Below are positions 5,272 to 63,840 of a stretch of DNA of 64,000 nucleotides, piece after piece (within the stretch, counting starts at the first letter, position 1; every line of letters begins with the position of its first letter). The stretch lies in NCBI RefSeq assembly GCF_964204645.1, contig NW_027437449.1:42762-106761 (forward strand), written 5' to 3'. The DNA comes from Tubulanus polymorphus. Taxonomy: Eukaryota; Nemertea; Palaeonemertea; Tubulaniformes; Tubulanidae. Below the pieces are notes generated by a model that was not told the DNA's origin, did not search any database, and worked only from the letters and a program-made list of their open reading frames with translations. The position numbers were made by a program, and so were the translations under genes.

Positions 5272-8012
5272 CTATATATCTATTCCTACTCTCAGTCTTT
5301 TATTGAGTTTTTTAAGTTCTGATATGATGTAATCTCTCGTCGTATCGCGGTCGGTGCTGCAGCAGTAGATACACAGGTCAGAAAGATGCGGAAGATTATT
5401 GATTAATTCGACGATTGATTTGACGAATAAATCGATATCGTGCTGTGTATTAATCCGCGCGAGTGAACTGTGAAACTTTAAATAACGAATTGACGAGACG
5501 TGTTTTAGTTGTTTAAAGATGCGATTGTTCTGTTCCGGTCTATCGAGACAGCTATCAATACTGACTTTTATCAGCTGATTTACCGCATCTGTTGATAGAT
5601 ACCGAACAAGTGCGTCAACATCAGCTTCTGAATGCAACTGTATTTCTAATACAGTCAGCCGCGGCGGGTGATCTAGAACGCGGTGTATTGGTAAATTAAA
5701 TCCGTAAATGAAAAGACGTTTTAGTTTCGGCATTGAACCGACACTATCACTGATTGCTGCACATTCATCTGTCGTTAGTTTGCTCAGTCCGCTCAGTCCG
5801 AGCAGTCCGAGCTGAATTGTTTCGATGTGTGAAGATTTTATCGTGTTGTTTAAATCATTCAATTCCTCCGAACCGATCAAATCTTTATCGAATATTACTC
5901 CAAAAAGACATAAGGTTTTCAAACTCGGAATGATGTTTATCAGCCCTCTGATTGTATTTCTATCGAGCTGATATTCCCACAGCGATCTGAGATATAGATG
6001 TTTTATGGATGGATACGATTTGTGAATATTGACTAAAATATTACCTAAACGTTCCGCACTAACAACAGTATTAATAATCAGACTCTCCACTGTATTGTGT
6101 GTGTTAGTATCAACACTGATCAACCGCGCGTCATCTTTAGTGTTAATCTCGTGACTTGTAATAATCCATTCATTATTGAGTTTCTTGTAACATTCACCAT
6201 CTCGCCGCACAAACCAGTTTAAACTGTTGCTCTTCTGACACATAGTCAAGCACTGATCGGGTTTTGATGACCTGTATGTATCTAATATCATACCGTGAAG
6301 ACTAGTGTTACTCGCTATGGCTGTTTCTAATACGCGGTAATCGTCGGGTTCCAGTTCGTGAATACCCAGTATGTAAACTAGCTCGATCTGACATTGTTTG
6401 TGTTCGAGTATTTTTGCGAGCATGTTTATCTGCGATCTGCTATAAAATGCAGATACGAACAACATTTTCTGCATGTAGTGAACTATTTCACTAATGGCGT
6501 CGTCCGGCCAGTCGGCTTCATTCATGCAGATTGACAACTGATGAGATAAAACAGTTCTTTCGGATCGGAGTTCGATGTAGCGTTCGTAATCGGGGATGAG
6601 CGCCAAATCTGCCGATTCCCTAGTAACCGTAACAAAGGACTCGACTCTATCCACTATTGTGACTGCTTTTAAATGTTCATCTATTAAAGTCTTGAAAAGT
6701 TCACCGAGGCCGCGGTTAAACTTGTAACGATACAGCAGCCCTGCCATGAATCTCGGGTATAATTCACCATATTTCACAAGTTCGTCCTGTAGTTGTTCAA
6801 ACGCGCATTTATTCCAGGGTGTTTTCCAGGGTATTTCATTACTGTTGTTGAATTGTACGACCGAGTGTACCGCCGCCAGAAATTCGTGCACAGATTTGTG
6901 TATGAACCGCAGCTGGACGGAGCGGTCTGATTTCCGTCGCGGCGACATCTCTTTGCACGTCAAAGCCGTCCTTTTCGATTCGTCGAGTTTGAGACGACTT
7001 TCGGTGAAGCTGTTTTGATGCTCGATGAGCGTCTCATACGCGACTTGACAAATTTCTTTAAGCGCTTTAGAATTTTCGATATTGCGGAAAAAACATTCCT
7101 TCGACAACTCGAGGCCCTCGCGTTTACTGATCAGAAAACATGTCAAATCGATGTAGATATCGGTGAGTTTTGATGGTATCGTAATTTCTTCCTCGTCCAT
7201 ATACAGAAAACAAAACATATGTAGTATCAGCGGGTTGTAGTAGATACTTTTAAATAAAGGTGACGCTGCGGCTTCAATCTTGTCGAATAGCTGATATGGA
7301 TCGCGCTCGGGGAATTTTCTCTTCATAATATCGATGACTTCTTCCTGTTCGAAGCCGGATATCGATACAACGGTGAATTTGGGATCAGTGACGATCATGC
7401 TGCCCCCGGACTCACGTGTTGTTATGACGATATGCGCTTTCGGTAATTTATTGGTCACGTGTACGATGTCTTTTTTCGCTTTATCGTTTTTCAACTCGTC
7501 GAAGCCGTCTAGAAAAAATATCGATTTTTCTGCATTTTCCTCTACGAATTCTTTAAAACTATCAATCGGCAGAACCTTTCTGATTTCTGGATTCAAAAGA
7601 TTTTCGTAAATGTACTTATAAATACACGCGTTATCAGCGGGCAGTTCATTTAACGGTATATAGAATAACATAGGAAATGTTTTTAGAAACGGTGATCGCT
7701 CCCATGACAACACTTGATTAACTACCTGAGTAGTTTTACCCATACCGGGTTCACCTACGAGGCACACGGGTTTCACATCACTCTCTTTATAAGTGAAAAG
7801 TTTCCCGAAATCATCGGGTAAAATCAATGACTGCTCCTCACTTCCTTCATTTTTCTTCGGGTTTCGTTTTTGGGCTTGAATTTTCGCGTGTTCTTGGGTG
7901 AAGAAGTCATTGAAATTGGTGACTTCTTCGTTCCACCAAACCTCTTTGAAATTTTCAACATCGATCATTCGTTGATACGTTTTTTTCAAACTCATCTGAA
8001 CTTGATCAACAT
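5272..8012 (-). CDS. NACHT-domain NLR-like receptor, main exon
   Basis: STAND-class NTPase of the NLR type, expected to act in the cytoplasm as an innate immune sensor. Numbering residues from the internal Met at 7995: a short N-terminal segment (1-70); Walker A GEPGMGKTT at 81-89; Walker B FFLDGFDEL around 160-168; a sensor ITTRESG at 191-197; an NLR-type FIHKSVHEFLAA motif near 375; and a C-terminal half (about 630-907) with weak leucine-rich-repeat-like segments such as LKTLCLFGV. The Met at 7995 is unlikely to be the true start. A strong splice acceptor (TTTTATTTTTACAG) ends at 8013, and the frame stays open from 8012 through VDQVQ into MSLKK. One base from an upstream exon is needed (phase 1). 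The coding exon at 13849-13975 supplies exactly that phase. The exon is open over 900 codons, so it looks functional. Ligand and N-terminal effector are not evident. Confidence 0.88.
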
Positions 8013-8045
8013 CTGTAAAAATAAAATCAGTTTGAGATTTTTTAG

Positions 8046-9060
8046 AATTTCTATGGCGGCTGATTTTGCCTCAAAATCATAGAATCATAGAAAATGTCAT
8101 GAGCTAAAATTTTACAATATTGACTGCAGTTAAAAAATATACCAAGGAACTACAGAGTTATTCTGCTATTCAACGCCCCCTGGTGCCCTTAAACAAAAAC
8201 CAACGAACCTGAAACTCACCACAATCATATATCATGCCATGAGCTAAAACTTTGTAATTGATTGCGGTGGCAAAATATGCACCAGAAAGAATCTTTCTGT
8301 GGGGTCGGGTTAGCAACAAGTTCGATCAGAGACATTCAAGGTCCCATCTACACGAGTGGAAAAATCCTTTATTTTCAATCTACACGAGGAAAACATTTCC
8401 AAAAAAAGTCACCTTTAAAAATTCAGCTTTTTCACCTTTTTATACAAAATTATACTTAATCTAAAGATAAACGGCTTCATTGATTTTGGTGAGCTTCACG
8501 TGTTACTAAAACGAGGGCGATATCATCACAGCTCCGCAGTAAATACTGCAAACTACGCCGCGCATCAACATGCAATTTTCAGCACAGGACAAAATGTTTA
8601 TTAATCTTTCTCATCTTTCTCAGAATTTCAGTTTGAGTTAATCGGATGACAACAATTCATTTCATTTAGTTCTTAACTTTTGAAATGAGGATTGGAAAAC
8701 TGTATTAGTCACGTGATACACGATGAACCGGTTTTCTGAACACAAATCTTCGCTGCTTACGCGCATAAGAAGTGCCGGTTTTAAGTCTTTGCGCAGGTAA
8801 ACCAAATATACTTTGTTAATTTAGATTTCATCAAGAAATTGTTTCTTAATCTAAAGATAATTTAGCTGATTTTGGTGAGCTTCACGTGTTACAAAAACGA
8901 GGGCGCTATCATCACAGCTCCGCAGTAAATACTGCAAACTACGCCGCGCATCAACATGCAATTTTCAGCACAGGACAAAATGTTTATTAATCTTTCTCAT
9001 CTTTCTCAGAATTTCAGTTTGAGTTAATCGGATGACAACAATTCATTTCATTTAGTTCTT
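8046..9060 (+). repeat. Intronic duplicated repeat block
   Basis: The stretch 8046-8470 recurs at about 12140-12556 (both begin TATGGCGGCTGATTTTGCC). The stretch 8470-8660 recurs directly at about 8860-9055 and again at about 12556-12745, around the motif GGTGAGCTTCACGTGTTAC. The block lies in the putative large intron of the NLR gene. No coding capacity is recognised, and the small frames at 8258-8464 and 12357-12557 are copies of the same repeat. Confidence 0.8.
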
Positions 9061-15707: not shown

Positions 15708-15924
15708 CTGAAAAACAGAATTTAGAATTCAGTCATTTTATCTCAATAAGTGCAGCACATTTTTTCTGACCTAATTGTTGTGTCCAGTATTTACACAATA
15801 TTACACAATTTAGGGTTAGACTTTTTTGTTACATAATATGAATTTGTATAGCAATATAAAGTTCCATCAAAAACGATAAAAGTCTGAAATCTGTATATTG
15901 TGAATTTTGTATTAGTTTCAGCCC

Positions 15925-18498
15925 AAACTGTCGTTAGTTGTGTTCTAGTTGTGTCTGTCACGCGATTTCTAGTGGTAAATAGCGAATATCAAACTGTCGT
16001 TAGTTGTGTTCTAGTTGTGTCTACCACGCGATTTCTAGTGGTAAATAGCGGATATCAAACTGTCGTTAGTTGTGTTCTAGTTGTGTCTACCACGCGATTT
16101 CTAGTGGTAAATAGCGGATATCAAACTGTCGTTAGTTGTGTTCTAGTTGTGTCTGCCACGCGATTTCTAGTGGTAAATAGCGGATATCAAACTGTCGTTA
16201 GTTGTGTTCTAGTTGTGTCTACCACGCGATTTCTAGTGGTAAATAGCGGATATCAAACTGTCGTTAGTTGTGTTCTAGTTGTGTCTGACACGCGATTTCT
16301 AGTGGTAAATAGCGGATATCAAACTGTCGTTAGTTGTGTTCTAGTTGTGTCTACCACGCGATTTCTAGTGGTAAATAGCGGATATCAAACTGTCGTTAGT
16401 TGTGTTCTAGTTGTGTCTACCACGCGATTTCTAGTGGTAAATAGCGGATATCAAACTGTCGTTAGTTGTGTTCTAGTTGTGTCTGACACGCGATTTCTAG
16501 TGGTAAATAGCGGATATCAAACTGTCGTTAGTTGTGTTCTAGTTGTGTCTGACACGCGATTTCTAGTGGTAAATAGCGGATATCAAACAGTCGTTAGTTG
16601 TGTTCTAGTTGTGTCTACCACGCGATTTCTAGTGGTAAATAGCGGATATCAAACTGTCGTTAGTTGTGTTCTAGTTGTGTCTGCCACGCGATTTCTAGTG
16701 GTAAATAGCGGATATCAAACTGTCGTTAGTTGTGTTCTAGTTGTGTCTGCCACGCGATTTCTAGTGGTAAATAGCGGATATCAAACTGTCGTTAGTTGTG
16801 TTCTAGTTGTGTCTACCACGCGATTTCTAGTGGTAAATAGCGGATATCAAACTGTCGTTAGTTGTGTTCTAGTTGTGTCTGCAACGCGATTTCTAGTGGT
16901 AAATAGCGGATATCAAACTGTCGTTAGTTGTGTTCTAGTTGTGTCTGACACGCGATTTCTAGTGGTAAATAGCGGATATCAAACTGTCGTTAGTTGTGTT
17001 CTAGTTGTGTCTACCACGCGATTTCTAGTGGTAAATAGCGGATATCAAACTGTCGTTAGTTGTGTTCTAGTTGTGTCTACCACGCGATTTCTAGTGGTAA
17101 ATAGCGGATATCAAACTGTCGTTAGTTGTGTTCTAGTTGTGTCTACCACGCGATTTCTAGTGGTAAATAGCGGATATCAAACTGTCGTTAATTGTGTTCT
17201 AGTTGTGTCTGACACGCGATTTCTAGTGGTAAATAGCGGATATCAAACTGTCGTTAGTTGTGTTCTAGTTGTGTCTACCACGCGATTTCTAGTGGTAAAT
17301 AGCGGATATCAAACTGTCGTTAGTTGTGTTCTAGTTGTGTCTGCCACGCGATTTCTAGTGGTAAATAGCGGATATCAAACTGTCGTTAGTTGTGTTCTAG
17401 TTGTGTCTGCCACGCGATTTCTAGTGGTAAATAGCGGATATCAAACTGTCGTTAGTTGTGTTCTAGTTGTGTCTGCCACGCGATTTCTAGTGGTAAATAG
17501 CGGATATCAAACTGTCGTTAGTTGTGTTCTAGTTGTGTCTGCCACGCGATTTCTAGTGGTAAATAGCGGATATCAAACTGTCGTTAGTTGTGTTCTAGTT
17601 GTGTCTGCCACGCGATTTCTAGTGGTAAATAGCGGATATCAAACTGTCGTTAGTTGTGTTCTAGTTGTGTCTACCACGCGATTTCTAGTGGTAAATAGCG
17701 GATATCAAACTGTCGTTAGTTGTGTTCTAGTTGTGTCTGCCACGCGATTTCTAGTGGTAAATAGCGGATATCAAACTGTCGTTAGTTGTGTTCTAGTTGT
17801 GTCTACCACGCGATTTCTAGTGGTAAATAGCGGATATCAAACTGTCGTTAATTGTGTTCTAGTTGTGTCTGACACGCGATTTCTAGTGGTAAATAGCGGA
17901 TATCAAACTGTCGTTAGTTGTGTTCTAGTTGTGTCTGCCACGCGATTTCTAGTGGTAAATAGCGGATATCAAACTGTCGTTAGTTGTGTTCTAGTTGTGT
18001 CTACCACGCGATTTCTAGTGGTAAATAGCGGATATCAAACAGTCGTTAGTTGTGTTCTAGTTGTGTCTACCACGCGATTTCTAGTGGTAAATAGCGGATA
18101 TCAAACTGTCGTTAGTTGTGTTCTAGTTGTGTCTGACACGCGATTTCTAGTGGTAAATAGCGGATATCAAACTGTCGTTAGTTGTGTTCTAGTTGTGTCT
18201 ACCACGCGATTTCTAGTGGTAAATAGCGGATATCAAACTGTCGTTAGTTGTGTTCTAGTTTTTTCTACCACGCGATTTCTAGTAGTAAATAGCGGATATC
18301 AAACTGTCGTTAGTTGTGTTCTAGTTGTGTCTGACACGCGATTTCTAGTGGTAAATAGCGGATATCAAACTGTCGTTAGTTGTGTTCTAGTTGTGTCTAC
18401 CACGCGATTTCTAGTGGTAAATAGCGGATATCAAACTGTCGTTAGTTGTGTTCTAGTTGTGTCTACCACGCGATTTCTAGTGGTAAATAGCGGATATC
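15925..18498 (+). repeat. 66-bp minisatellite, 39 units
   Basis: Thirty-nine head-to-tail 66-bp units, nearly identical, each running from AAACTGTCGTTAG to GCGGATATC. Since 66 is divisible by 3 and the unit has no stop in one frame, the whole block reads as a single 879-codon frame with a 22-residue repeat. There is no start context, signal or known family, so I do not call a gene. Most variation sits at one spot (TCTACCACG, TCTGCCACG, TCTGACACG, once GCAACG). A few units have TTAATT for TTAGTT or ACAGTC for ACTGTC. Confidence 0.95.
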
Positions 18499-18539
18499 AA
18501 ACAAGACGCAGGTCTTTGTTTTTACCTGATTCTCCCTGA

Positions 18540-52728: not shown

Positions 52729-53966
52729 CAGCCGTGCCCCGATGAAAAAACTATTAGGTTAAATACGTGTTGTGAGTCACCAATTCAACTTATAAGATCA
52801 TTTGATTGTTTCATTAATTGGGAATAATTTTAGAATGTTTTATTCGAACAATAGCTCGGAAGTTCACTAGAATTGCTACGTATTGCTAATTCCGTGGAAT
52901 TCATTACCCGCTAGTAATCCGGAGCGGTATCTAAAGCCATCCGCGGCTAGAACCGTGAACTCTTTAGTAAGTGCTCGGAGCGCAAAGCCTTAGTCCTAGT
53001 CGACCTCGATCTGCGCGGTCTACAGAACTAGCCCTCCCAAGTGGAGTATGTCCCATTTAAAAGAATGATGGCGGACGAATCAATCGCAATTTTCACTTGA
53101 AATATTTAGAAGCTTCTCTTTCAACGCAGAAGCGACAGAATGTCTTCAAACCATTTCAACATTGAAATACAGTAAGTAAATTTACTTGTGAATCGAATAC
53201 TTGTGATGTATGAAGGTGATTCGAGATGGAGAGCGACATAAAACAGTCCGGTTTAACCCCACGAGCAGCAGCAATCTCTATTCACTGATGCGTGCTGTAA
53301 AACCATCATTCAGTAAAAAGTATCAATAACATAAAGAGTGGATCGAGGCCTAAACTATTACTATCAATACAGATGTAGCATTTGACCCAGCGGATACCCT
53401 GGATTTTAGAGTGCTTTCTCTGACAGGTTTCTATGTTTATTTCAGGGTGATGCTCTACTAATTAACTGCAGTCATCAGGAAGCTCAAGGAATAACTGTTG
53501 TGTTTGGCGATGAAGTGAGTAATGACAATGACATATGATAAGGCTTATCGAGTGAAATACAGGATATTGACAAATTCAAGTTCTGAAATTACTCGCTTGA
53601 TGGCGCTAGTCAGAAACGGAAATTGGAACCTAAATCCACCACACGCGAGATTTTTACTATGAAAAATGCTATTTCTCATGTGTTTATCTTGTGTTTCAGT
53701 TACATACACGTTACGGTCACCTACCACAGCACAAGAGGAATATGGTAATAGCCGGTGGTGTAACTGCGTCTGTTATCGTAGCGCCAGTTGTCGCTAGTTT
53801 AGCCGTTGGTATCGGTGTACCGATATTATTGGCGTATGTTTACGGCGTGGTACCGATATCGCTGTGTCGCAGCGGTGGTTGCGGCGTATCGACGACTGAC
53901 TCCGGGCGGAGTTCGATTTGAGTTCGAAGAGAACGAAGGAAGTGGCCCATCGGGGCCTTACGCCCG
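52729..53966 (+). repeat. Last array unit, truncated by the telomeric PLE
   Basis: Head, an empty SINE site (CATTCAGTAAAAAGTATC near 53308), GGTGATGCTC at 53445, then RNF19 block 5 by the same junction as block 4. The unit stops at 53966. Confidence 0.8.
53700..53966 (+). pseudogene. RNF19: RNF19-like transmembrane exon, block 5, cut at its donor
   Basis: Same exon and same frameshift, with one private change (GAAGAGAACG, Glu for Gln). The other blocks continue CGCCC|GTAAGTACTT. Here CGCCCG is followed at once by GGTTAGGTTTAGAG, the 3' tail of the PLE. The old chromosome arm ends here. Confidence 0.88.
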
Positions 53967-55893
53967 GGTTAGGTTTAGAGATAGAGGTTAGGGGACCAAA
54001 CCGAAGGTTTGGAGACCCCACTAGTGCACGGGCAGCGGGTTATCCCTGTAAAAAAGTAGTGAGAGTTAATTGTTGTAGTGAGGCGGTCTACGGGACGTTC
54101 ATGCCTCGGGGCGTGTTCGTGTCGAGTCGTCGTATCCAGTCTTGTTCGGCTGCTTCGCGGATCGGTCTCGTGGAGCCTGGTAGGTGTTGGAGACCGTACA
54201 CCCGAAAGTGTTCGCGGGTGTGGTCGACTTGGTTGAAGTGGTCCGAGACTGGAGTCGAATTCTTCGTTCTGATGCGTGAGACGTGATGAGTGACGCGTTC
54301 TCGTAGAGACATTCCGGTTTGGCCGACGTACAGCATGTTGCACTTGGTGCATTCGATGCAGTATACAATTTCACGGGTCGCGCAATTAATTGTGCTGCGG
54401 ATCGCGTGCATTTTGTTGTGGCTGCGGCAAACGGTTGTTTCTCGGACGAGTGGACACGTACGACATCTCGGTGTTCTGCATTTCTCGGTGCCTCGACGTC
54501 GGGTTGACGGAGTTCTTTGAGTAGACCTGGAAATAGAAGAATTGGAAACAACGGAAGTATTTCTGTTACGATGTGGTGAAGAGGGGACTCGGGGAGGGGG
54601 TGGCTCCGTGGGTTTGAGCTGCGACGAAGTAAGGAGATCTTTGAGACTCTTGTGCTTGGTGTAGGCGGTGACCGTGGTTACCTCGTCAGACCGGCCGGTG
54701 GCCGTAGCCAGTTCCGTAAATCTGGTTCGGATGTTACGGGCTAGGGTTCGGTTGGCTTCGGAGTGAGGTAAGATAAGCGGTAAACGCTTTTTCGGCGGTT
54801 CGTCGGCCCGTTGTTGTTCTCGTAGATCTCGTTCGGCGTGGTGCCGTAGAGCTTGGCTTTTGATGTGTCGCAGTTCGCGGTCTTTGTAGCCACGACCTCT
54901 GAGTACTTTAAGGACGGTTCCGGACGCTGCGTGTAAGTCCGAATCGTTATTGCAGATGCGCCGGAACCGGAGAATTTGACTTTTAACTATACCGGAAAAT
55001 GTGTGTTTAGGGTGAAACGAGGATCGATGTAGTAATTGATGCGAATCGGTTGGTTTGAAGTAGACTTTGGTGTCTACTGTGCCACTTGTCTCGAATCGCG
55101 GGCCTTTGAAAGTGGTTACGTCCAGGAAGTTGACGCTGGTGTCGCTGATTTCGAACTTGAGTTTGATGGATCGGCTCACTGTTTGTAGGACGTCGATGAA
55201 TTGCATCAACGTTTCGCGGCCGTGTTCCCAAACTATGTAGATGTCGTCGATGAACCGAGCGTATAGCGATGGTTGGAGTTCGCTTCTGGACAGACCTTCT
55301 TTTTCCCATTCGGCTACAAAGATATTGGCATAAGAAGGAGCAAAACGCTTACCCATTGCGGTACCTTTTACCTGTAAATATGTGTTTTCGTTAAAGTTAA
55401 AGTCATTTTTCTTCAGGCTGATTTCGAGTAGTTTCAGCAGCTCGGCATCCGGGCGTCCCGGGTTTGGGTTATCTCGGAGAGCTTGTCGGATGCTGGCGAT
55501 ACCCTCTTCGTGGGGGATGTTGGTGTAGAGCGAATCGATGTCCATGGTGACGAGTAACGCATCGGCGCTAAATTGTTTACCGGCCAAAATATCTAGAAAG
55601 TGGTTGGTATCTTTGACGTACGACGGGTGACCGCGGGCGATCGGCTGCAAATAGTAGTCGATCCATTCCGAAATTTCGTAGGTTTCGGAGCCGCAGTCGG
55701 AGACGATCGGTCTCCCCGGCGGTACGCGATCGGGTACCGTCCACTTCTCGCGTTCTTTATGGATTTTGGGAAGCAGATAGAACTGCCTCTGTTTCGGATT
55801 ATCGGGCGGTAATAGATATTCGGCGGTTTTTAGCGGGATGATTTTTCGTCGAGCCATATTTTCGATGATTTCGCGAATTTCTTCCCCGGTCTG
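53967..55893 (-). mobile_element. Penelope-like element copy 1, 5'-truncated
   Basis: Minus-strand element whose 3' end (53967, CCTAACC-rich on its own strand) abuts the array and whose 5' break (55893) is followed by TTAGGG repeats. It matches copy 2 at a constant offset of 1944 bp. I found four substitutions in the 1927 bp (54535, 54574, 54631, 55465), so it is very young. It lacks ORF1 and the first ~166 codons of ORF2 as numbered from 58332. Confidence 0.92.
54088..55893 (-). pseudogene. ORF2 remnant of PLE copy 1 (RT + GIY-YIG)
   Basis: Retains LPKIHK, GRPIVS, MDIDSLYTNIP, GTAMGKRFAPSYANIF, the catalytic FIDD and the whole C-terminal GIY-YIG region, uninterrupted. The amino end is lost at QTGEEIRE. 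The frame runs on upstream into translated telomere repeat (NPNPNPS), which is accidental. RT catalysis alone might be preserved, but there is no promoter or natural start. Confidence 0.88.
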
Positions 55894-55910
55894 GCTAGGG
55901 TTAGGGTTAG
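55894..55910 (+). repeat. Telomere repeats between PLE copies
   Basis: GCTAGGGTTAGGGTTAG leads into the tail of copy 2. About three TTAGGG units separate the broken 5' end of copy 1 from the 3' end of copy 2, as if telomerase had briefly healed the end before the next attachment. Confidence 0.9.
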
Positions 55911-56031
55911 GGTTAGGTTTAGAGATAGAGGTTAGGGGACCAAACCGAAGGTTTGGAGACCCCACTAGTGCACGGGCAGCGGGTTATCCCTGTAAAAAAG
56001 TAGTGAGAGTTAATTGTTGTAGTGAGGCGGT

Positions 56032-58497
56032 CTACGGGACGTTCATGCCTCGGGGCGTGTTCGTGTCGAGTCGTCGTATCCAGTCTTGTTCGGCTGCTTC
56101 GCGGATCGGTCTCGTGGAGCCTGGTAGGTGTTGGAGACCGTACACCCGAAAGTGTTCGCGGGTGTGGTCGACTTGGTTGAAGTGGTCCGAGACTGGAGTC
56201 GAATTCTTCGTTCTGATGCGTGAGACGTGATGAGTGACGCGTTCTCGTAGAGACATTCCGGTTTGGCCGACGTACAGCATGTTGCACTTGGTGCATTCGA
56301 TGCAGTATACAATTTCACGGGTCGCGCAATTAATTGTGCTGCGGATCGCGTGCATTTTGTTGTGGCTGCGGCAAACGGTTGTTTCTCGGACGAGTGGACA
56401 CGTACGACATCTCGGTGTTCTGCATTTCTCGGTGCCTCGACGTCGGGTTGACGGAGTTCTTTGAGTAGACCTGGAAATGGAAGAATTGGAAACAACGGAA
56501 GTATTTCTGTTACGATGCGGTGAAGAGGGGACTCGGGGAGGGGGTGGCTCCGTGGGTTTGAGCTGCGACGAAGTTAGGAGATCTTTGAGACTCTTGTGCT
56601 TGGTGTAGGCGGTGACCGTGGTTACCTCGTCAGACCGGCCGGTGGCCGTAGCCAGTTCCGTAAATCTGGTTCGGATGTTACGGGCTAGGGTTCGGTTGGC
56701 TTCGGAGTGAGGTAAGATAAGCGGTAAACGCTTTTTCGGCGGTTCGTCGGCCCGTTGTTGTTCTCGTAGATCTCGTTCGGCGTGGTGCCGTAGAGCTTGG
56801 CTTTTGATGTGTCGCAGTTCGCGGTCTTTGTAGCCACGACCTCTGAGTACTTTAAGGACGGTTCCGGACGCTGCGTGTAAGTCCGAATCGTTATTGCAGA
56901 TGCGCCGGAACCGGAGAATTTGACTTTTAACTATACCGGAAAATGTGTGTTTAGGGTGAAACGAGGATCGATGTAGTAATTGATGCGAATCGGTTGGTTT
57001 GAAGTAGACTTTGGTGTCTACTGTGCCACTTGTCTCGAATCGCGGGCCTTTGAAAGTGGTTACGTCCAGGAAGTTGACGCTGGTGTCGCTGATTTCGAAC
57101 TTGAGTTTGATGGATCGGCTCACTGTTTGTAGGACGTCGATGAATTGCATCAACGTTTCGCGGCCGTGTTCCCAAACTATGTAGATGTCGTCGATGAACC
57201 GAGCGTATAGCGATGGTTGGAGTTCGCTTCTGGACAGACCTTCTTTTTCCCATTCGGCTACAAAGATATTGGCATAAGAAGGAGCAAAACGCTTACCCAT
57301 TGCGGTACCTTTTACCTGTAAATATGTGTTTTCGTTAAAGTTAAAGTCATTTTTCTTCAGGCTGATTTCGAGTAGTTTCAGCAGCTCGGCATCCGGGCGT
57401 CCCGGGTTCGGGTTATCTCGGAGAGCTTGTCGGATGCTGGCGATACCCTCTTCGTGGGGGATGTTGGTGTAGAGCGAATCGATGTCCATGGTGACGAGTA
57501 ACGCATCGGCGCTAAATTGTTTACCGGCCAAAATATCTAGAAAGTGGTTGGTATCTTTGACGTACGACGGGTGACCGCGGGCGATCGGCTGCAAATAGTA
57601 GTCGATCCATTCCGAAATTTCGTAGGTTTCGGAGCCGCAGTCGGAGACGATCGGTCTCCCCGGCGGTACGCGATCGGGTACCGTCCACTTCTCGCGTTCT
57701 TTATGGATTTTGGGAAGCAGATAGAACTGCCTCTGTTTCGGATTATCGGGCGGTAATAGATATTCGGCGGTTTTTAGCGGGATGATTTTTCGTCGAGCCA
57801 TATTTTCGATGATTTCGCGAATTTCTTCCCCGGTCTGTTCGAAGATCGGTTGCTGCAGCGGCTGATAATACTCGAGATCGGCTAGTTGGCGCATGGCTTC
57901 GAGGACGTAGTCGTCGCGGTCCATGATAACCGTAGCGGAACCCTTATCGGCGGCTTTGATGACAATATTAGTGTTGTCACGCAGCTGCTGGAGGGCTTCG
58001 CGTTCCTGTTTAGTGAGGTTATCATTTACGCGACGCGTATCCCTGGTTTGTTGAGCCAATTCGTGCGCGTCGTTGCAGAACCCGGCGATTACTGGTTCTA
58101 TTTCATCCGGAGCCCAACTGCTGGGCAGACGGAAACGCGGAGCCTCGCGGTCCGGTTTGTCACGGAAGTGATGGTCGAGTTTCACTAGCCGGTTGAATCG
58201 GCACACTCCCTTGGTGCGCTCGGTCGCGGCGGCATCAGAACCGATTTTTGGAGTCGGGCAATAAGTGAGGCCCTTTCGGAGTAGCTGATGTTGCGCCGGA
58301 CTTAGGCGGAGTGAACGTGTGAGGTTGACCACCGGGCTCCCGAGAGCGGTGACCGGATCGCGTCGCGCTTGGTTTGGTGCCGGTTCTTCGTGTTCGTCGG
58401 ACCTGGAAATGGAAGAAATCAGAGAAGCATTGGTTAATTCCGGTTGATTTAACTCACCAATAGTGGACCCGTTGGTCTCACTAATACTTAGTTTAAA
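56032..58497 (-). CDS. PLE ORF2: reverse transcriptase with GIY-YIG endonuclease
   Basis: Numbering from 58332, where the first codon is GTG and not ATG: DKGSATVIMD (129-138), LPKIHK (206-211), GRPIVS (225-230), MDIDSLYTNI (282-291), GTAMGKRFAPSYANIF (342-357), the catalytic FIDD (379-382) and VNFLDV form a PLE-type RT related to telomerase RT. A Cys/His cluster (C637, C642, C645, C654, H657) precedes a GIY-YIG nuclease: VYCIEC (675-680), YVGQT (687-691), an Arg near 696-698, a Glu near 745-748 and terminal Asn764. The frame has no ATG near its start but is open upstream to 58497, overlapping the end of ORF1 in the -1 frame. It is therefore probably made as an ORF1-ORF2 fusion by frameshifting (see 58461-58497). 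An upstream acceptor-like CTTCCATTTCCAG (58403) is the alternative route. Confidence 0.9.
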   Translation of the reverse strand, partial: FKLSISETNGSTIGELNQPELTNASLISSISRSDEHEEPAPNQARRDPVTALGSPVVNLTRSLRLSPAQHQLLRKGLTYCPTPKIGSDAAATERTKGVCRFNRLVKLDHHFRDKPDREAPRFRLPSSWAPDEIEPVIAGFCNDAHELAQQTRDTRRVNDNLTKQEREALQQLRDNTNIVIKAADKGSATVIMDRDDYVLEAMRQLADLEYYQPLQQPIFEQTGEEIREIIENMARRKIIPLKTAEYLLPPDNPKQRQFYLLPKIHKEREKWTVPDRVPPGRPIVSDCGSETYEISEWIDYYLQPIARGHPSYVKDTNHFLDILAGKQFSADALLVTMDIDSLYTNIPHEEGIASIRQALRDNPNPGRPDAELLKLLEISLKKNDFNFNENTYLQVKGTAMGKRFAPSYANIFVAEWEKEGLSRSELQPSLYARFIDDIYIVWEHGRETLMQFIDVLQTVSRSIKLKFEISDTSVNFLDVTTFKGPRFETSGTVDTKVYFKPTDSHQLLHRSSFHPKHTFSGIVKSQILRFRRICNNDSDLHAASGTVLKVLRGRGYKDRELRHIKSQALRHHAERDLREQQRADEPPKKRLPLILPHSEANRTLARNIRTRFTELATATGRSDEVTTVTAYTKHKSLKDLLTSSQLKPTEPPPPRVPSSPHRNRNTSVVSNSSISRSTQRTPSTRRRGTEKCRTPRCRTCPLVRETTVCRSHNKMHAIRSTINCATREIVYCIECTKCNMLYVGQTGMSLRERVTHHVSRIRTKNSTPVSDHFNQVDHTREHFRVYGLQHLPGSTRPIREAAEQDWIRRLDTNTPRGMNVP
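58461..58497 (-). promoter_or_regulatory. Candidate -1 ribosomal frameshift signal
   Basis: The end of ORF1 reads GGT TTA AAC TAA. This is the classical slippery heptamer T TTA AAC (58497-58491) in the zero frame, directly before the stop (58490-58488). Slipping back by one gives TTT AAA CTA AGT..., and I checked every codon from there to 58332: none is a stop. After a 7-nt spacer (TAAGTAT) comes a stem-loop: TAGTG (58483-58479) pairs with CACTA (58465-58461), and GACC (58477-58474) with GGTC (58469-58466), with one bulged A and loop AACG. Heptamer, phase, spacing and stem all fit known -1 signals. Activity is inferred. Confidence 0.78.
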
Positions 58498-60050
58498 CCA
58501 CTGAGCCAGTGGTCCAGCAGGGTGTTAGCTGTACCACGGTTCCAGTGGATCCCGTCTCCAACAACTCTGAAGCGTCGATCATCGATGGGTGGTATCGCGG
58601 TGACGTCGTCGTGAATCTCGAGGAATTCGTTGAACTTCCGGGCGAACTGCTGGTGTTCGCGGGTCGTGTTGAGTTGAACGAAGTGGACGAACGAGTGCTG
58701 ATACTTCTTGACTGCGGCGTTGATCAGGCGCTGTGTGGTCTTCTTGGCGGTCGCTTCGAAGTTGTTGTCGCGGTTGTTGATTCCGACGCTGATGATCACC
58801 GTATCCGGGCGATCTCGGCGCTCCGGTACAGCATCGATCAGGTCGGCGAGATGAGCTATCTTGCAGCCGGGGAAGCTCTCGATCTGGACGTCATCCGGAC
58901 GGCGGCTTGATGTGATGTTACTCAGATTTGAGTCACCAATCACCAGAATGGGTCGCCGGGTTGGTGGCAGACTCCAATCCTGTTTCTTCCGACCCGTATT
59001 CGGATGACGGCGAACTTCCTGGGGCGCCATCGGTCTCGGTGTTGGCGTCGGACTTCGCGCTGGCAGTAGGCGCCCTGGTGACCTGTAATGAGACGGAGAG
59101 CTGGAAAGAGAAGAAGAGAGAGACGGCGTCGGACTGCTGGTTGGTGCGGTCGGCGTTCTCTGCGGCGGCGGCGGCGTCGGGTTTCGAGGCGGCGGCGTCG
59201 GACTTCTCGGTGGCGTCGGACTTCTTGGTGGCGGCGGCGGCGGCGTCGGCATCGGACTTCTCGGTGGTGGCGCCATTCTGGTTGGTGGCGTCCTGGTGAC
59301 ATCCGCGTAGCTTCTCGGTGACCTGGAATCAGAAAAAGAAGGAGGCGCTGTGGGCGCGGCGGGCGCGACTGCGGTTGGTGCAGGCGTCCTCGGCGTCGCG
59401 GGCTTTCGAATCTTCCGGCTCGGTCTCGGCGGCGGACGAATCTTCGGCTCCGTGGGTGCCTCCTGGTGGTGTGACCTGAAATGAGAAGGGGAAGAAGGTG
59501 GGTTAGATAGGACATTTCTGAGTTTGTCAGACAGAGCCTGACCGCGGAATTTCGACCGCAAATCCAGCGCGATGTTGAAAAGCCGGATCGTTCCGGGGCT
59601 CAGACGGGAGCCGAAATTCCTCCGGGCCCATGTCAGGGCGACATCCTGTGCTGATAGACAGTCCGGCAGAGGATCACCCATTAGCTGAACAAATGTGGCA
59701 GCGTAATGGATGGTCAGCTCTTTCGAAACTGTCTCCATCCAGACGTCCGCGGCAGCGTGCAGCTGCACCGTTACTGCTTCGGTGCAAGCCGCCGGCCGCA
59801 GGAACATCTTCAGATGGTCCTTCTTCCTCCGAATCGCTTTCGGACCAGAGCTCAACTGGGCAAGGTGGTGCGCCACTTGAAGAGCTCTATAGTAATTTTT
59901 CGGCGACATCCCGGGTTGCTGGTGTCGCTCAGGGCGTCCTCCGCCCTTGCTGGTCTTCTCAGCTGGTGGTCGTTTCTTCTTTCGAGTAGATCGCTCCATT
60001 GACAGATATTTCGGCGAGGTTGCCTTCGTCAGTGTCAGTGCAGGAATCAT
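58488..60050 (-). CDS. PLE ORF1 with C-terminal SGNH/GDSL hydrolase-like domain
   Basis: 520 codons from an ATG at 60050. Residues 1-45 are basic (RSTRKKKRPP). About 48-190 is a predicted helical region of unknown family (QVAHHLAQLSSGPKAIRRKK...). About 190-365 is low complexity and Pro/Ser/Arg-rich. From 366 an SGNH fold is clear: PILVIGDSNLSNI with block I GDS (Ser374), block III VGINNRDN (423-428) and block V GDGIH (Asp499, His502). Ser-Asn-Asp-His are all present, so hydrolase activity is plausible. SGNH/esterase domains occur in ORF1 of CR1-type LINEs and in rotifer terminal elements; their role is not settled. A TATA-like box only 24 nt upstream would put the transcription start near this ATG, so Met18 (MERSTRKKK) may be the real start. 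Confidence 0.85.
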   Translation of the reverse strand: MIPALTLTKATSPKYLSMERSTRKKKRPPAEKTSKGGGRPERHQQPGMSPKNYYRALQVAHHLAQLSSGPKAIRRKKDHLKMFLRPAACTEAVTVQLHAAADVWMETVSKELTIHYAATFVQLMGDPLPDCLSAQDVALTWARRNFGSRLSPGTIRLFNIALDLRSKFRGQALSDKLRNVLSNPPSSPSHFRSHHQEAPTEPKIRPPPRPSRKIRKPATPRTPAPTAVAPAAPTAPPSFSDSRSPRSYADVTRTPPTRMAPPPRSPMPTPPPPPPRSPTPPRSPTPPPRNPTPPPPQRTPTAPTSSPTPSLSSSLSSSPSHYRSPGRLLPARSPTPTPRPMAPQEVRRHPNTGRKKQDWSLPPTRRPILVIGDSNLSNITSSRRPDDVQIESFPGCKIAHLADLIDAVPERRDRPDTVIISVGINNRDNNFEATAKKTTQRLINAAVKKYQHSFVHFVQLNTTREHQQFARKFNEFLEIHDDVTAIPPIDDRRFRVVGDGIHWNRGTANTLLDHWLSGLN

Positions 60051-60073
60051 GCTGAACTAGGATTAGACACGGG

Positions 60074-60081
60074 TTTTTATA
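60074..60081 (-). promoter_or_regulatory. TATA-like box upstream of PLE ORF1
   Basis: TATAAAAA on the minus strand, 24 nt before the first ATG of ORF1. With the usual ~30-nt spacing, transcription would start at about 60045-60052, giving an essentially leaderless mRNA for the first ATG and a ~50-nt leader for Met18. This would make the remaining ~800 bp non-transcribed upstream DNA, which conflicts with it being part of the retrotransposed RNA. A second, upstream promoter is then needed for the full-length copy. Confidence 0.4.
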
Positions 60082-60880
60082 CACGCAGCGCGCAACAAGT
60101 GAACAGTATTCGAGTTAGAAGTTAAGTGACCATATGAGACCTTGTGATCTAGACTAATTGTACTTCTGTGATCAAGCTAATAGACAAACTAGGGGTCTGA
60201 CTAATTATGCCTTTGATCCAGAGTGACTAGAAAACAGCACTAATTATGGCCCTTGATCTAGCTGTTGAATAGTTTGCGTTGATGTATAGTTCTAAAGATC
60301 TAAAGAGCGGCGTGTCTAATATAGAATTGAAAAGTTTATTTCGATATAACCTAATAAATACTCAAAGTGTTTTCTATAAAGAGAAATCTAGAATATGTAT
60401 TATTAATATACGTGAACCGGAATGTTCGAAATATGTCCGAGTTCAGTTTCAAAATTGCTTAATTCCTAATTAGTTTAGACGCGTTAATTAGCGGTGCGCG
60501 GCCGAGGCGTATTCCGATATACGCGTGTTTACTAAATAGTCGTAAATGGTGAAATCCGGTTCTTAGTTAATCAAGTTTTCTCCGTATTCTAAAGCTTTTA
60601 AGAGCGGATTTTGAAATATCTACGCGGTATTCTACCGAAAATTGGATGAATTAGACAGCGCGGCGTCGGCGATTTAGTAGGAAGTTATAACCCGTAAGAT
60701 CTAAATTACTGAGTGAGCGCGGGTGGTTGATTAGCCCTAATTATGGGTGACGAGTTTTGATAGAAATGTCTTACTAATACGTCTGTTTTAATTCTAAGTT
60801 CTTAAATATAATTCTATTAGATAAACTACGCTTATTTAGAGTTATTAGGATCGAGTAAAGCTATGTGAACTTGAACATGT
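60082..60880 (-). other. Non-coding 5' region of PLE copy 2
   Basis: About 800 bp with no open frame of interest, AT-rich, ending at TTAGGG repeats. Being enclosed by telomere repeats together with the ORFs, it is most simply the element's 5' leader or promoter. It could instead be a separate small telomeric insertion. I see no direct duplication with the element's other parts. Confidence 0.5.
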
Positions 60881-61094
60881 AGGGTTAGGGTTAGGTTTAG
60901 AGGTATAGGTTAGGGGAACCAATCAGAGTATCAATTAATGTTTTTGTGTTCTTCAGATTAACCCACCACAATTAATCGAGAGTAATTAACTGATATCTTT
61001 TCAGAACCCCACTGTGACACTGGCAGCGGGAAAGCCGGCTAACTCCACCTGCCGGAAGGTATTAGAGTTAGGGATACCGAAAAGCAATCCACCA

Positions 61095-61165
61095 CCTAGA
61101 CCGGGACTCGAACACCGGACCTTTCGTTTGCCGGACGACTGCTCTACCGATTGAGCTACCTGGGC
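61095..61165 (-). repeat. tRNA-like head, unit 1
   Basis: Box A TAGCTCAATCGGTAGAGC and box B GTTCGAGTCCC in correct spacing. The acceptor halves GCCCAGG and TCTAGGT pair with one mismatch and two G-T pairs, the D stem GCTC/GAGC is perfect, and the anticodon stem has 4 of 5 pairs. The anticodon loop is CCGGCAA (C in place of T33, GGC in the anticodon position) and the T stem has two mismatches. It is tRNA-derived and probably transcribable by pol III, but a poor candidate for a functional tRNA. Confidence 0.72.
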
Positions 61166-61431
61166 GGACCGACGATTGCTCTCGGTTTCACCTCTATATC
61201 TCCGCACTTTCCTGGCACTGGTCGGGGTTAGGTTTAGAGGTATAGGTTAGGGGAACCAATCAGAGTATCAATTAATGTTTTTGTGTTCTTCAGATTAACC
61301 CACCACAATTAATCGAGAGTAATTAACTGATATCTTTTCAGAACCCCACTGTGACACTGGCAGCGGGAAAGCCGGCTAACTCCACCTGCCGGAAGGTATT
61401 AGAGTTAGGGATACCGAAAAGCAATCCACCA

Positions 61432-61502
61432 CCTAGACCGGGACTCGAACACCGGACCTTTCGTTTGCCGGACGACTGCTCTACCGATTGAGCTACCTGG
61501 GC
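61432..61502 (-). repeat. tRNA-like head, unit 2
   Basis: Identical to that of unit 1 as far as I can see; 337 bp further along. Confidence 0.72.
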
Positions 61503-61768
61503 GGACCGACGATTGCTCTCGGTTTCACCTCTATATCTCCGCACTTTCCTGGCACTGGTCGGGGTTAGGTTTAGAGGTATAGGTTAGGGGAACCAATCAG
61601 AGTATCAATTAATGTTTTTGTGTTCTTCAGATTAACCCACCACAATTAATCGAGAGTAATTAACTGATATCTTTTCAGAACCCCACTGTGACACTGGCAG
61701 CGGGAAAGCCGGCTAACTCCACCTGCCGGAAGGTATTAGAGTTAGGGATACCGAAAAGCAATCCACCA

Positions 61769-61839
61769 CCTAGACCGGGACTCGAACACCGGACCTTTCG
61801 TTTGCCGGACGACTGCTCTACCGATTGAGCTACCTGGGC
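61769..61839 (-). repeat. tRNA-like head, unit 3
   Basis: Identical to that of unit 1. Confidence 0.72.
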
Positions 61840-62105
61840 GGACCGACGATTGCTCTCGGTTTCACCTCTATATCTCCGCACTTTCCTGGCACTGGTCGGG
61901 GTTAGGTTTAGAGGTATAGGTTAGGGGAACCAATCAGAGTATCAATTAATGTTTTTGTGTTCTTCAGATTAACCCACCACAATTAATCGAGAGTAATTAA
62001 CTGATATCTTTTCAGAACCCCACTGTGACACTGGCAGCGGGAAAGCCGGCTAACTCCACCTGCCGGAAGGTATTAGAGTTAGGGATACCGAAAAGCAATC
62101 CACCA

Positions 62106-62176
62106 CCTAGACCGGGACTCGAACACCGGACCTTTCGTTTGCCGGACGACTGCTCTACCGATTGAGCTACCTGGGC
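62106..62176 (-). repeat. tRNA-like head, unit 4
   Basis: Identical to that of unit 1. Confidence 0.72.
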
Positions 62177-62442
62177 GGACCGACGATTGCTCTCGGTTTC
62201 ACCTCTATATCTCCGCACTTTCCTGGCACTGGTCGGGGTTAGGTTTAGAGGTATAGGTTAGGGGAACCAATCAGAGTATCAATTAATGTTTTTGTGTTCT
62301 TCAGATTAACCCACCACAATTAATCGAGAGTAATTAACTGATATCTTTTCAGAACCCCACTGTGACACTGGCAGCGGGAAAGCCGGCTAACTCCACCTGC
62401 CGGAAGGTATTAGAGTTAGGGATACCGAAAAGCAATCCACCA

Positions 62443-62513
62443 CCTAGACCGGGACTCGAACACCGGACCTTTCGTTTGCCGGACGACTGCTCTACCGATT
62501 GAGCTACCTGGGC
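62443..62513 (-). repeat. tRNA-like head, unit 5
   Basis: Identical to that of unit 1; the most telomere-proximal copy. Confidence 0.72.
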
Positions 62514-62573
62514 GGACCGACGATTGCTCTCGGTTTCACCTCTATATCTCCGCACTTTCCTGGCACTGGTCGG

Positions 62574-62662
62574 GGTTAGGTTTAGAGGTATAGGTTAGGG
62601 GTTAGGGTTAGGGTTAGGGTTAGGTTTTAGGGATAGAGGTTGGGGGTTTGCACCCCCGGTGC
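62574..62662 (-). mobile_element. Two very short element tails before the telomere
   Basis: 62574-62599 is the first 26-27 bp of a sixth 337-bp unit (GGTTAGGTTTAGAGGTATAG) and then runs into TTAGGG repeats. After about four repeats, 62615-62662 reads GTTTTAGGGATAGAGGTTGG and GGGTTTGCACCCCCGGTGCT. The first part resembles the common tail; the second matches neither the PLE copies nor the 337-bp unit closely. It may be the extreme 3' end of another, severely 5'-truncated telomeric element. Confidence 0.5.
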
Positions 62663-63840
62663 TAGGGTTAGGGTTAGGGTTAGGGTTAGGGTTAGGGTTA
62701 GGGTTAGGGTTAGGTTAGGGTTAGGGTTAGGGTTAGGGTTAGGGTTAGGGTTAGGGTTAGGGTTAGGGTTAGGGTTAGGGTGGTTAGGGTTAGGGTTAGG
62801 GGTTAGGGTTAGGGTTAGGGTTAGGGTTAGGGTTAGGGTTAGGGTTAGGGTTAGGGTTAGGGTTAGGGTTAGGGTTAGGGTTAGGGTTAGGGTTAGGGTT
62901 AGGGTTAGGGTTAGGGTTAGGGTTAGGGTTAGGGTTAGGGTTAGGTTAGGGTTAGGGTTAGGGTTAGGGTTAGGGTTAGGGTTAGGGTTAGGGTTAGGGT
63001 TAGGGTTAGGGTTAGGGTTAGGGTTAGGGTTAGGGTTAGGGTTAGGGTTAGGGTTAGGGTTAGGGTTAGGGTTAGGGTTAGGGTTAGGGTTAGGGTTAGG
63101 GTTAGGGTTAGGGTTAGGGTTAGGGTTAGGGTTAGGGTTAGGGTTAGGGTTAGGGTTAGGGTTAGGGTTAGGGTTAGGGTTAGGGTTAGGGTTAGGGTTA
63201 GGGTTAGGGTTAGGGTTAGGGTTAGGGTTAGGGTTAGGGTTAGGGTTAGGGTTAGGGTTAGGGTTAGGGTTAGGGTTAGGGTTAGGGTTAGGGTTAGGGT
63301 TAGGGTTAGGGTTAGGGTTAGGGTTAGGGTTAGGGTTAGGGTTAGGGTTAGGGTTAGGGTTAGGTTAGGGTTAGGGTTAGGGTTAGGGTTAGGGTTAGGG
63401 TTAGGGTTAGGGTTAGGGTTAGGGTTAGGGTTAGGGTTAGGGTTAGGGTTAGGGTTAGGGTTAGGGTTAGGGTTAGGGTTAGGGTTAGGGTTAGGGTTAG
63501 GGTTAGGGTTAGGGTTAGGGTTAGGGTTAGGGTTAGGGTTAGGGTTAGGGTTAGGGTTAGGGTTAGGGTTAGGGTTAGGGTTAGGGTTAGGGTTAGGGTT
63601 AGGGTTAGGGTAGGGTTAGGGTTAGGGTTAGGGTAGGGTTAGGGTTAGGGTTAGGGTTAGGGTTAGGGTTAGGGTTAGGGTTAGGGTTAGGGTTAGGGTT
63701 AGGGTTAGGGTTAGGGTTAGGGTTAGGGTTAGGGTTAGGGTTAGGGTTAGGGTTAGGGTTAGGTTAGGGTTAGGGTTAGGGTTAGGGTTAGGGTTAGGGT
63801 TAGGGTTAGGGTTAGGGTTGGGTTAGGGTTAGGGTTAGGG

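Follow-up and report, generated by a model that had tools for sequence, protein, structure and literature searches.

Penelope-like elements (PLEs) are related to telomerase, and retrovirus or long terminal repeat (LTR) gag-pol and coronavirus ORF1a/1b are classes of -1 frameshifting. Endonuclease-bearing (EN+) PLEs of the Penelope/Poseidon type have been described as possessing a single open reading frame (ORF) (PMC11167929, PMC6431247; literature statements here and below refer to excerpts of the papers cited). An SGNH esterase has been noted in RepBase PLEs (PMC3905857), and the Athena/Terminon PLEs are endonuclease-deficient, with at most stand-alone GIY-YIG-like ORFs (PMC3846280, PMC6431247). 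Here we analyse a 64,000-nt stretch of DNA from the nemertean Tubulanus polymorphus ("the window"), which forms the right end of contig C32 in a genome of 267.8 Mb and whose terminal 1.4 kb consist of TTAGGG-type repeats. On its minus strand, adjoining the telomere, lies a PLE with endonuclease, its 5' end facing the telomere. Judged by its sequence, it is best interpreted as a two-ORF, SGNH-bearing and endonuclease-bearing PLE that would work in the manner of gag-pol -1 frameshifting. The parts of the element on which this interpretation rests are the following.

58488..60050, minus strand: ORF1, from the first ATG at 60050 to the TAA at 58490-58488; 520 amino acids (aa), proline-rich, with a C-terminal SGNH/GDSL esterase-like domain.
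58491..58497, minus strand: slippery heptamer T_TTA_AAC, in ORF1 phase and directly 5' of the TAA; identical in 30/30 near-identical copies examined.
58461..58483, minus strand: hairpin, a candidate stimulator; 9-bp stem with a single bulge, capped by a loop of 4 nt and starting 7 nt past the heptamer.
56032..58524, minus strand: ORF2 in the -1 frame, 830 aa from stop to stop (stop at 56034-56032), or 819 aa from 58491 in the expected fusion.
57097..57507, minus strand: reverse transcriptase (RT) domain (RVT_1), ORF2 residues 340-476, E 1.1e-7, above the Pfam cut-off.
56068..56313, minus strand: GIY-YIG endonuclease domain, ORF2 residues 738-819, E 3.8e-4; at 21.1 bits, just short of the 22.6-bit Pfam cut-off.

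The element resembles canonical EN+ PLEs in combining RT and GIY-YIG in one polypeptide and in forming tandem or partial-tandem copies. However, those are described with one ORF, whereas here two ORFs overlap, with an SGNH-type ORF1 upstream in another frame. It shares an SGNH ORF1 with the RepBase PLEs; in the main text of PMC3905857, the word 'frameshift' is absent, and its excerpts do not address the expression of the RT of SGNH PLEs. With Athena/Terminon of bdelloid rotifers it has in common head-to-tail telomeric copies and 5' truncations capped by telomeric repeats, but those elements are EN-deficient, while the GIY-YIG domain of the window element lies within the RT ORF. The likeness to gag-pol and ORF1a/1b comprises an in-phase X_XXY_YYZ heptamer, a -1 overlap and a candidate downstream structure; unlike gag-pol, the element has no Gag, its upstream product is an esterase-like ORF1 protein, and it belongs to another retroelement class. 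In searches of open-licence PMC papers, we found no description of frameshifting in PLEs—nor did the sequence-only reading, an earlier account of this DNA, know of such a strategy—and no answer as to how the RT is expressed in PLEs with a second ORF; where excerpts mention both Penelope and frameshifting, the two are unconnected.

ORF1 ends with ...CTC AGT GGT TTA AAC TAA, placing T_TTA_AAC in phase at 58497-58491, as the sequence-only reading had it. Reading across the heptamer in the -1 frame yields FKL. This frame is free of stops from 58524 to 56034-56032 (830 codons), and thus the earlier claim that it stays open through the RT and GIY-YIG region is borne out. The two ORFs overlap by 37 nt, with the heptamer inside. 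The first AUG of ORF2 is codon 201 (57924). ORF2 indeed lacks an ATG at its start and has its first GTG at 58332; CTG codons precede it at 58509 and 58422. Throughout ORF1 of the window (523 codons), the junction heptamer is the only in-phase X_XXY_YYZ. Codon shuffling of the window overlap returned p values of 0.013 for any in-phase heptamer and 0.0019 for the four top heptamers; the arrangement stands well above chance because heptamer position, phase and class recur in distant families, as detailed below.

We consider it very probable, on this sequence evidence, that the ORF2 RT-endonuclease is made via -1 programmed ribosomal frameshifting in gag-pol style. The majority of ribosomes would translate ORF1 and terminate at the TAA. 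A minority would pause with TTA in the P site and AAC in the A site, shift back by one base to TTT/AAA and read on in ORF2, giving rise to an SGNH-RT-endonuclease fusion of 1339 aa (520 + 819) with the predicted junction peptide ...HWLSGLNLSISETNG.... As with gag-pol, the fusion would be the minor product, in fixed proportion to free ORF1 protein. The sequence displays the heptamer and its phase, the -1 overlap, an ORF2 start region devoid of AUG, and the return of site and phase in two further families; slippage itself, its rate, the contribution of the hairpin and the fusion as a working protein are what we infer from it. On mammalian ribosomes, U_UUA_AAC and A_AAA_AAC have been reported to rank among the heptamers most prone to shifting, and spacers of 5-9 nt have been used in many frameshift studies (PMC5009743).

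At the DNA level, three SGNH-bearing families were compared: that of the window, L047 (second copy L051) and L009. L047 is a second family from the same genome, located among copies near the start of C4, with 49% identity to the window element in the RT and 34% in ORF1. Its ORF1 ends with GTA AAA AAC GAA TAG, in which 3 nt separate the in-phase A_AAA_AAC from the stop; ORF2 is in the -1 frame. Scans of contig collections returned L009, L010 and L011 from genome contigs; no relatives were found in the viral contig collection. L009 consists of two identical tandem PLE copies in a record titled Epulopiscium sp. (RT 38% identical to the window). The DNA probably derives from the fish host, which we take to be a surgeonfish. 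Its SGNH-type ORF1 ends with TAT TTA AAC TTC AAA GCC CCT TAA, the heptamer T_TTA_AAC lying in phase 12 nt before the stop and ORF2 in the -1 frame.

An in-phase heptamer inside a -1 overlap is thus present in 3/3 SGNH-bearing families with DNA. For the window, L047 and L009, respectively, the overlaps measure 37, 73 and 85 nt, and the first ORF2 AUG is codon 201, 208 and 392. In the same order, codon-shuffle p values are 0.013, 0.059 and 0.077 for any in-phase heptamer in the overlap and 0.0019, 0.0144 and 0.0096 for the four top heptamers; assuming independence, the products of the three values are ~6e-5 and ~3e-7. The heptamer sequence varies between families while its class, phase and place are constant, which argues against a conserved peptide as the cause. 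Relatives that keep both ORFs but lack the heptamer, or have ORF2 in another frame, had been named as evidence that would speak against frameshifting; both other families keep the overlap and the in-phase heptamer. In the comparison across families that had been proposed as a check, heptamer class and phase recur, but the stem does not.

The arrangement is absent in 3/3 PLEs without a recognised SGNH ORF1 (L010, L011 and L048). L010 has one RT ORF with an ATG and ~200 additional N-terminal residues. L011 has a -1 overlap, but its sole heptamer, GGGAAAC (1239), is out of phase, and an ATG in the -1 frame overlaps the ORF1 stop (TCATGA). L048 likewise has a single, ATG-bearing RT ORF; the TTTAAAC present there at 1274 falls in no open stretch of more than 39 codons. 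A database relative, the 951-aa protein P0089, carries SGNH, RT and GIY-YIG in one frame; here, the frameshift was apparently lost or never gained.

We then looked for a footprint of the slippage in database proteins, namely the peptide FKL that results from the -1 reading of TTTAAAYTN. Of 8000 proteins scored, 2691 were RT relatives; 120 of these were listed, and in 107 of the listed ones an anchor can be recognised where the conserved region begins. FKL precedes the conserved region in 21 of these 107. Where the anchor follows 35 residues or more (41 proteins), 20 have FKL; the remaining one is P0033, with 34 residues. Before the anchor it occurs at 22/3110 positions, versus 14/76272 in the remainder of those proteins, a 38.5-fold difference. 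Together, the window element, L009 and the 21 FKL proteins form 17 groups at 60% identity.

Nine FKL proteins have at least 6 upstream residues; in 6 of these, positions -5..-3 carry a peptide compatible with an ORF1 His-Trp read in the -1 frame (background 0.0057). This is the window's own offset, where the ORF1 C-terminus reads HWLxxLN; at control offsets (-6..-4 and further upstream), 0 of 7 to 9 fit. P0060, P0113 and P0097 do not fit His-Trp, though by our reading P0097 fits Asn-Trp. As for ORF1 itself, the C-terminus is HWLCCLN in the relative P0122 and HWLSGLN in the window, and the relatives P0122 (CLN) and P0121 (PFL) are compatible with T_TTA_AAY and T_TTT_TTA. A search with the ORF1 alignment added P0123 only. 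The SGNH-RT-endonuclease fusion by -1 frameshift, as put forward by the sequence-only reading, is from the recurrence in families and this protein footprint the best-supported interpretation. That -1 frameshifting is an old, conserved strategy of the whole SGNH-bearing, EN-bearing PLE branch, from ribbon worms to what are apparently fish, appears probable to us.

If so, this third eukaryotic retroelement class would make a fixed ratio of ORF1 to ORF1-RT-EN protein, having reached gag-pol logic with an esterase replacing Gag, and the heptamer sequence would be free to vary with its phase kept. Given a fixed-ratio fusion, the SGNH protein would be to the RT what Gag is to Pol, a partner in set stoichiometry. 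Numerous database entries for PLE ORF2 proteins would then be truncated or mis-started at the N-terminus, and a useful annotation rule would be to seek an in-phase heptamer at the end of ORF1.

Inspecting the copies of the window family in the genome, we scored 54 matches of 922 first-look candidates from a protein search, such that all counts are lower bounds. ORF2 is stop-free over 830 codons in 48/54 scored matches. All 30 copies whose sequence was extracted have an identical site and the same ORF2, and in these, ORF1 is open over the whole stretch in 25 and interrupted by stops in 4, one locus starting later. Since the copies are nearly identical, they show the arrangement to be able to spread, rather than selection on the heptamer. 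Among older copies, L042 (on C1), L049 and L050 retain the heptamer; a deletion has removed the junction from L043. Many copies line up head-to-tail with the same orientation, both in the low-coordinate parts of C4, C10 and C65 and on further contigs. The family also matches in the interior of C1, C2, C3 and C6, and hence the designation as a telomeric PLE holds for the window copy but does not describe the family as a whole.

Several observations weigh against the frameshift interpretation. Three families are a small sample for the DNA-level comparison. The L047 ORF1 holds another in-phase A_AAA_AAC far upstream, so the heptamer is not unique to the junction there. Database proteins reveal residues, not codons, and most begin downstream of the site and cannot be judged; the remaining anchored relatives start too far downstream or carry something else in the place of FKL. 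With respect to the downstream structure, 95/200 shuffles of the window's 91-nt stretch fold equally well, a stem follows after 6 nt in L009 (strong) and is moderate in the window, whereas L047 has weak hairpins only, and the window hairpin has no counterpart of the same shape in L047 or L009. The last points of this kind concern splicing: a RefSeq model of an older copy (P0001) starts with Met-Ala where the genomic -1 frame of L042 reads His-Glu, which suggests that the NCBI pipeline proposed an upstream exon in that old copy, and a stretch of 50-55 nt shortly 3' of the ORF1 stop is flanked, in each nemertean family, by the top-scoring donor-like (GTRAGT) and acceptor-like sites.

As to the hairpin, equal folding was reached by 6.0% (+5..+45), 3.8% (+5..+55) and 6.8% (+5..+65) of 500 shuffles in the window, and by 0.4-31% in L047 and 2-15% in L009, depending on length. 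About 8% of element positions fold more strongly than the hairpin site. Taken alone, the significance of the hairpin is modest. The comparison of the three sites covered pseudoknot-free structures. A conserved stem as the common signal was rejected, as the three sites fold into unrelated structures; the 9-bp bulged stem 7 nt past the heptamer that the sequence-only reading described is present, but it is not a conserved component of the signal.

The splice-like sites raise the alternative that an intron or a trans-spliced leader joins ORF1 to ORF2 or supplies ORF2 with a start codon, the heptamer being incidental. A PLE copy with a spliceosomal intron has been reported (PMC3846280). In the window, an acceptor-like TTTCTTCCATTTCCAG ends 85 nt past the ORF1 stop and a donor-like GTGAGT sits at +30, and L047 has comparable donor- and acceptor-like sites at +20 and +70/+74. 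However, the strong donor-like sites are located past the ORF1 stop, and the L009 junction is without comparable sites. In 5/5 pairs, removal of the candidate intron joins ORF2 to an AUG-less frame or leaves its own frame AUG-less. Among the five top frame-compatible pairs listed for each family, no donor comes closer than 153 nt to the ORF1 stop on its 5' side; the donors fall within the SGNH domain or 5' of it, or, for the window and L009, at positions -160 to -339. Donor and acceptor scoring, which used approximate matrix values, combined with candidate-intron removal gave no AUG-led route to ORF2, and intron splicing was rejected as that route. Likewise, an ORF-fusing intron, raised beforehand as the finding that would contradict frameshifting, did not emerge: by DNA scoring, no good candidate intron both fits the frame and leaves the SGNH domain in place. 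An intron would also leave three in-phase heptamers unexplained, and we regard this alternative as improbable.

Two observations on splice-like sequences stand on their own. The flanked stretch (window 58403-58457, L047 1894-1947) may be a mini-intron or have arisen by chance. By eye, five pyrimidine-rich CAG|GTC stretches occur in the same codon phase, at ~58403, at ~56472 and three times in ORF1, encoding peptides like SSxSxRS; they resemble repeated 3' splice sites or a repeated linker peptide.

Independent initiation of ORF2, by reinitiation past the ORF1 stop or at a non-AUG start, could draw on the CTG at 58422 and the GTG at 58332, both in the ORF2 frame and past the ORF1 stop, and has a possible parallel in the ATG at the ORF1 stop of the more distant PLE L011. 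Yet ORF2 has no AUG before codons 201, 208 and 392 in the three families, and an independent start fails to explain the in-phase heptamer, the open -1 frame upstream and the in-frame fusion in P0089; we deem it very unlikely. Chance, in the form of a broken element or a heptamer coincidentally near a frameshift mutation, might be entertained given the codon-shuffle p of 0.013 for the single heptamer, but with the arrangement found in 3/3 SGNH-bearing families and reflected in further relatives by the protein footprint, and with near-identical copies whose ORF2 is intact in 48/54 scored matches, it is the least credible of the explanations considered.

Beyond the junction, the best database match of ORF2 is LOC141902624 of Tubulanus polymorphus (97% identical). 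RT and GIY-YIG occur together in a single polypeptide, as in PLEs, and this domain pair, together with the known features of the group, suggests that the RT belongs to the PLE clade. GIY-YIG exceeds the Pfam cut-off in L047 and L009, and the RVT_1 match of L009 falls slightly under its own. The ORF1 alignment profile (A3) has a match in PDB chain 4c1b_A, named 'ORF1-encoded protein' (E 2.2e-7), which we take to be the ZfL2-1 esterase of PMC3905857; against Pfam Lipase_GDSL_2, ORF1 reaches only E 0.056, far under the cut-off. GDSN and a later G-x-N are kept in 6/6 aligned ORF1-type proteins; the window, P0121, P0122 and L009 also have a terminal D-x-[IL]HW, which P0089 and P0123 carry in altered form or lack. 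Rfam returned no hammerhead ribozyme, a frequent though not invariable feature of the PLE pLTR, at E up to 1 in the window (53500-62700), and none in L009. Two further features mark the 3' side of the element.

55894..55937, minus strand: 3' terminus of the element, which continues into telomeric repeats of the CCCTAA type.
54056..55893, minus strand: next copy inward, 5'-truncated and abutting telomeric repeats; 99.8% identical over 1838 nt.

With a 3' end in CCCTAA repeats, the element RNA could conceivably base-pair to the G-rich overhang of the telomere and use it as a priming site, despite the endonuclease. Nearby, a 337-bp unit is repeated perfectly 5.1 times at 60888-62601. This array has five minus-strand tRNA-like matches by Rfam (tRNA model, 43 bits apiece) and none by ARAGORN. 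The unit ends in CCCTAA-type sequence and has 3' blocks in common with the PLE (35-43 nt at 91-93%, 26 nt at 88%); it looks like a tRNA-derived short interspersed nuclear element borrowing the machinery of the telomeric PLE. Elsewhere in the window, an open frame at 5272-8070 (932 aa) contains a NACHT domain (E 1e-15) and is NLR-like, and another at 15888-18539 (883 aa) is built from a repeated unit of ~22 residues (QTVVSCVLVVSTTRFLVVNSGY), a minisatellite without stops in that frame.

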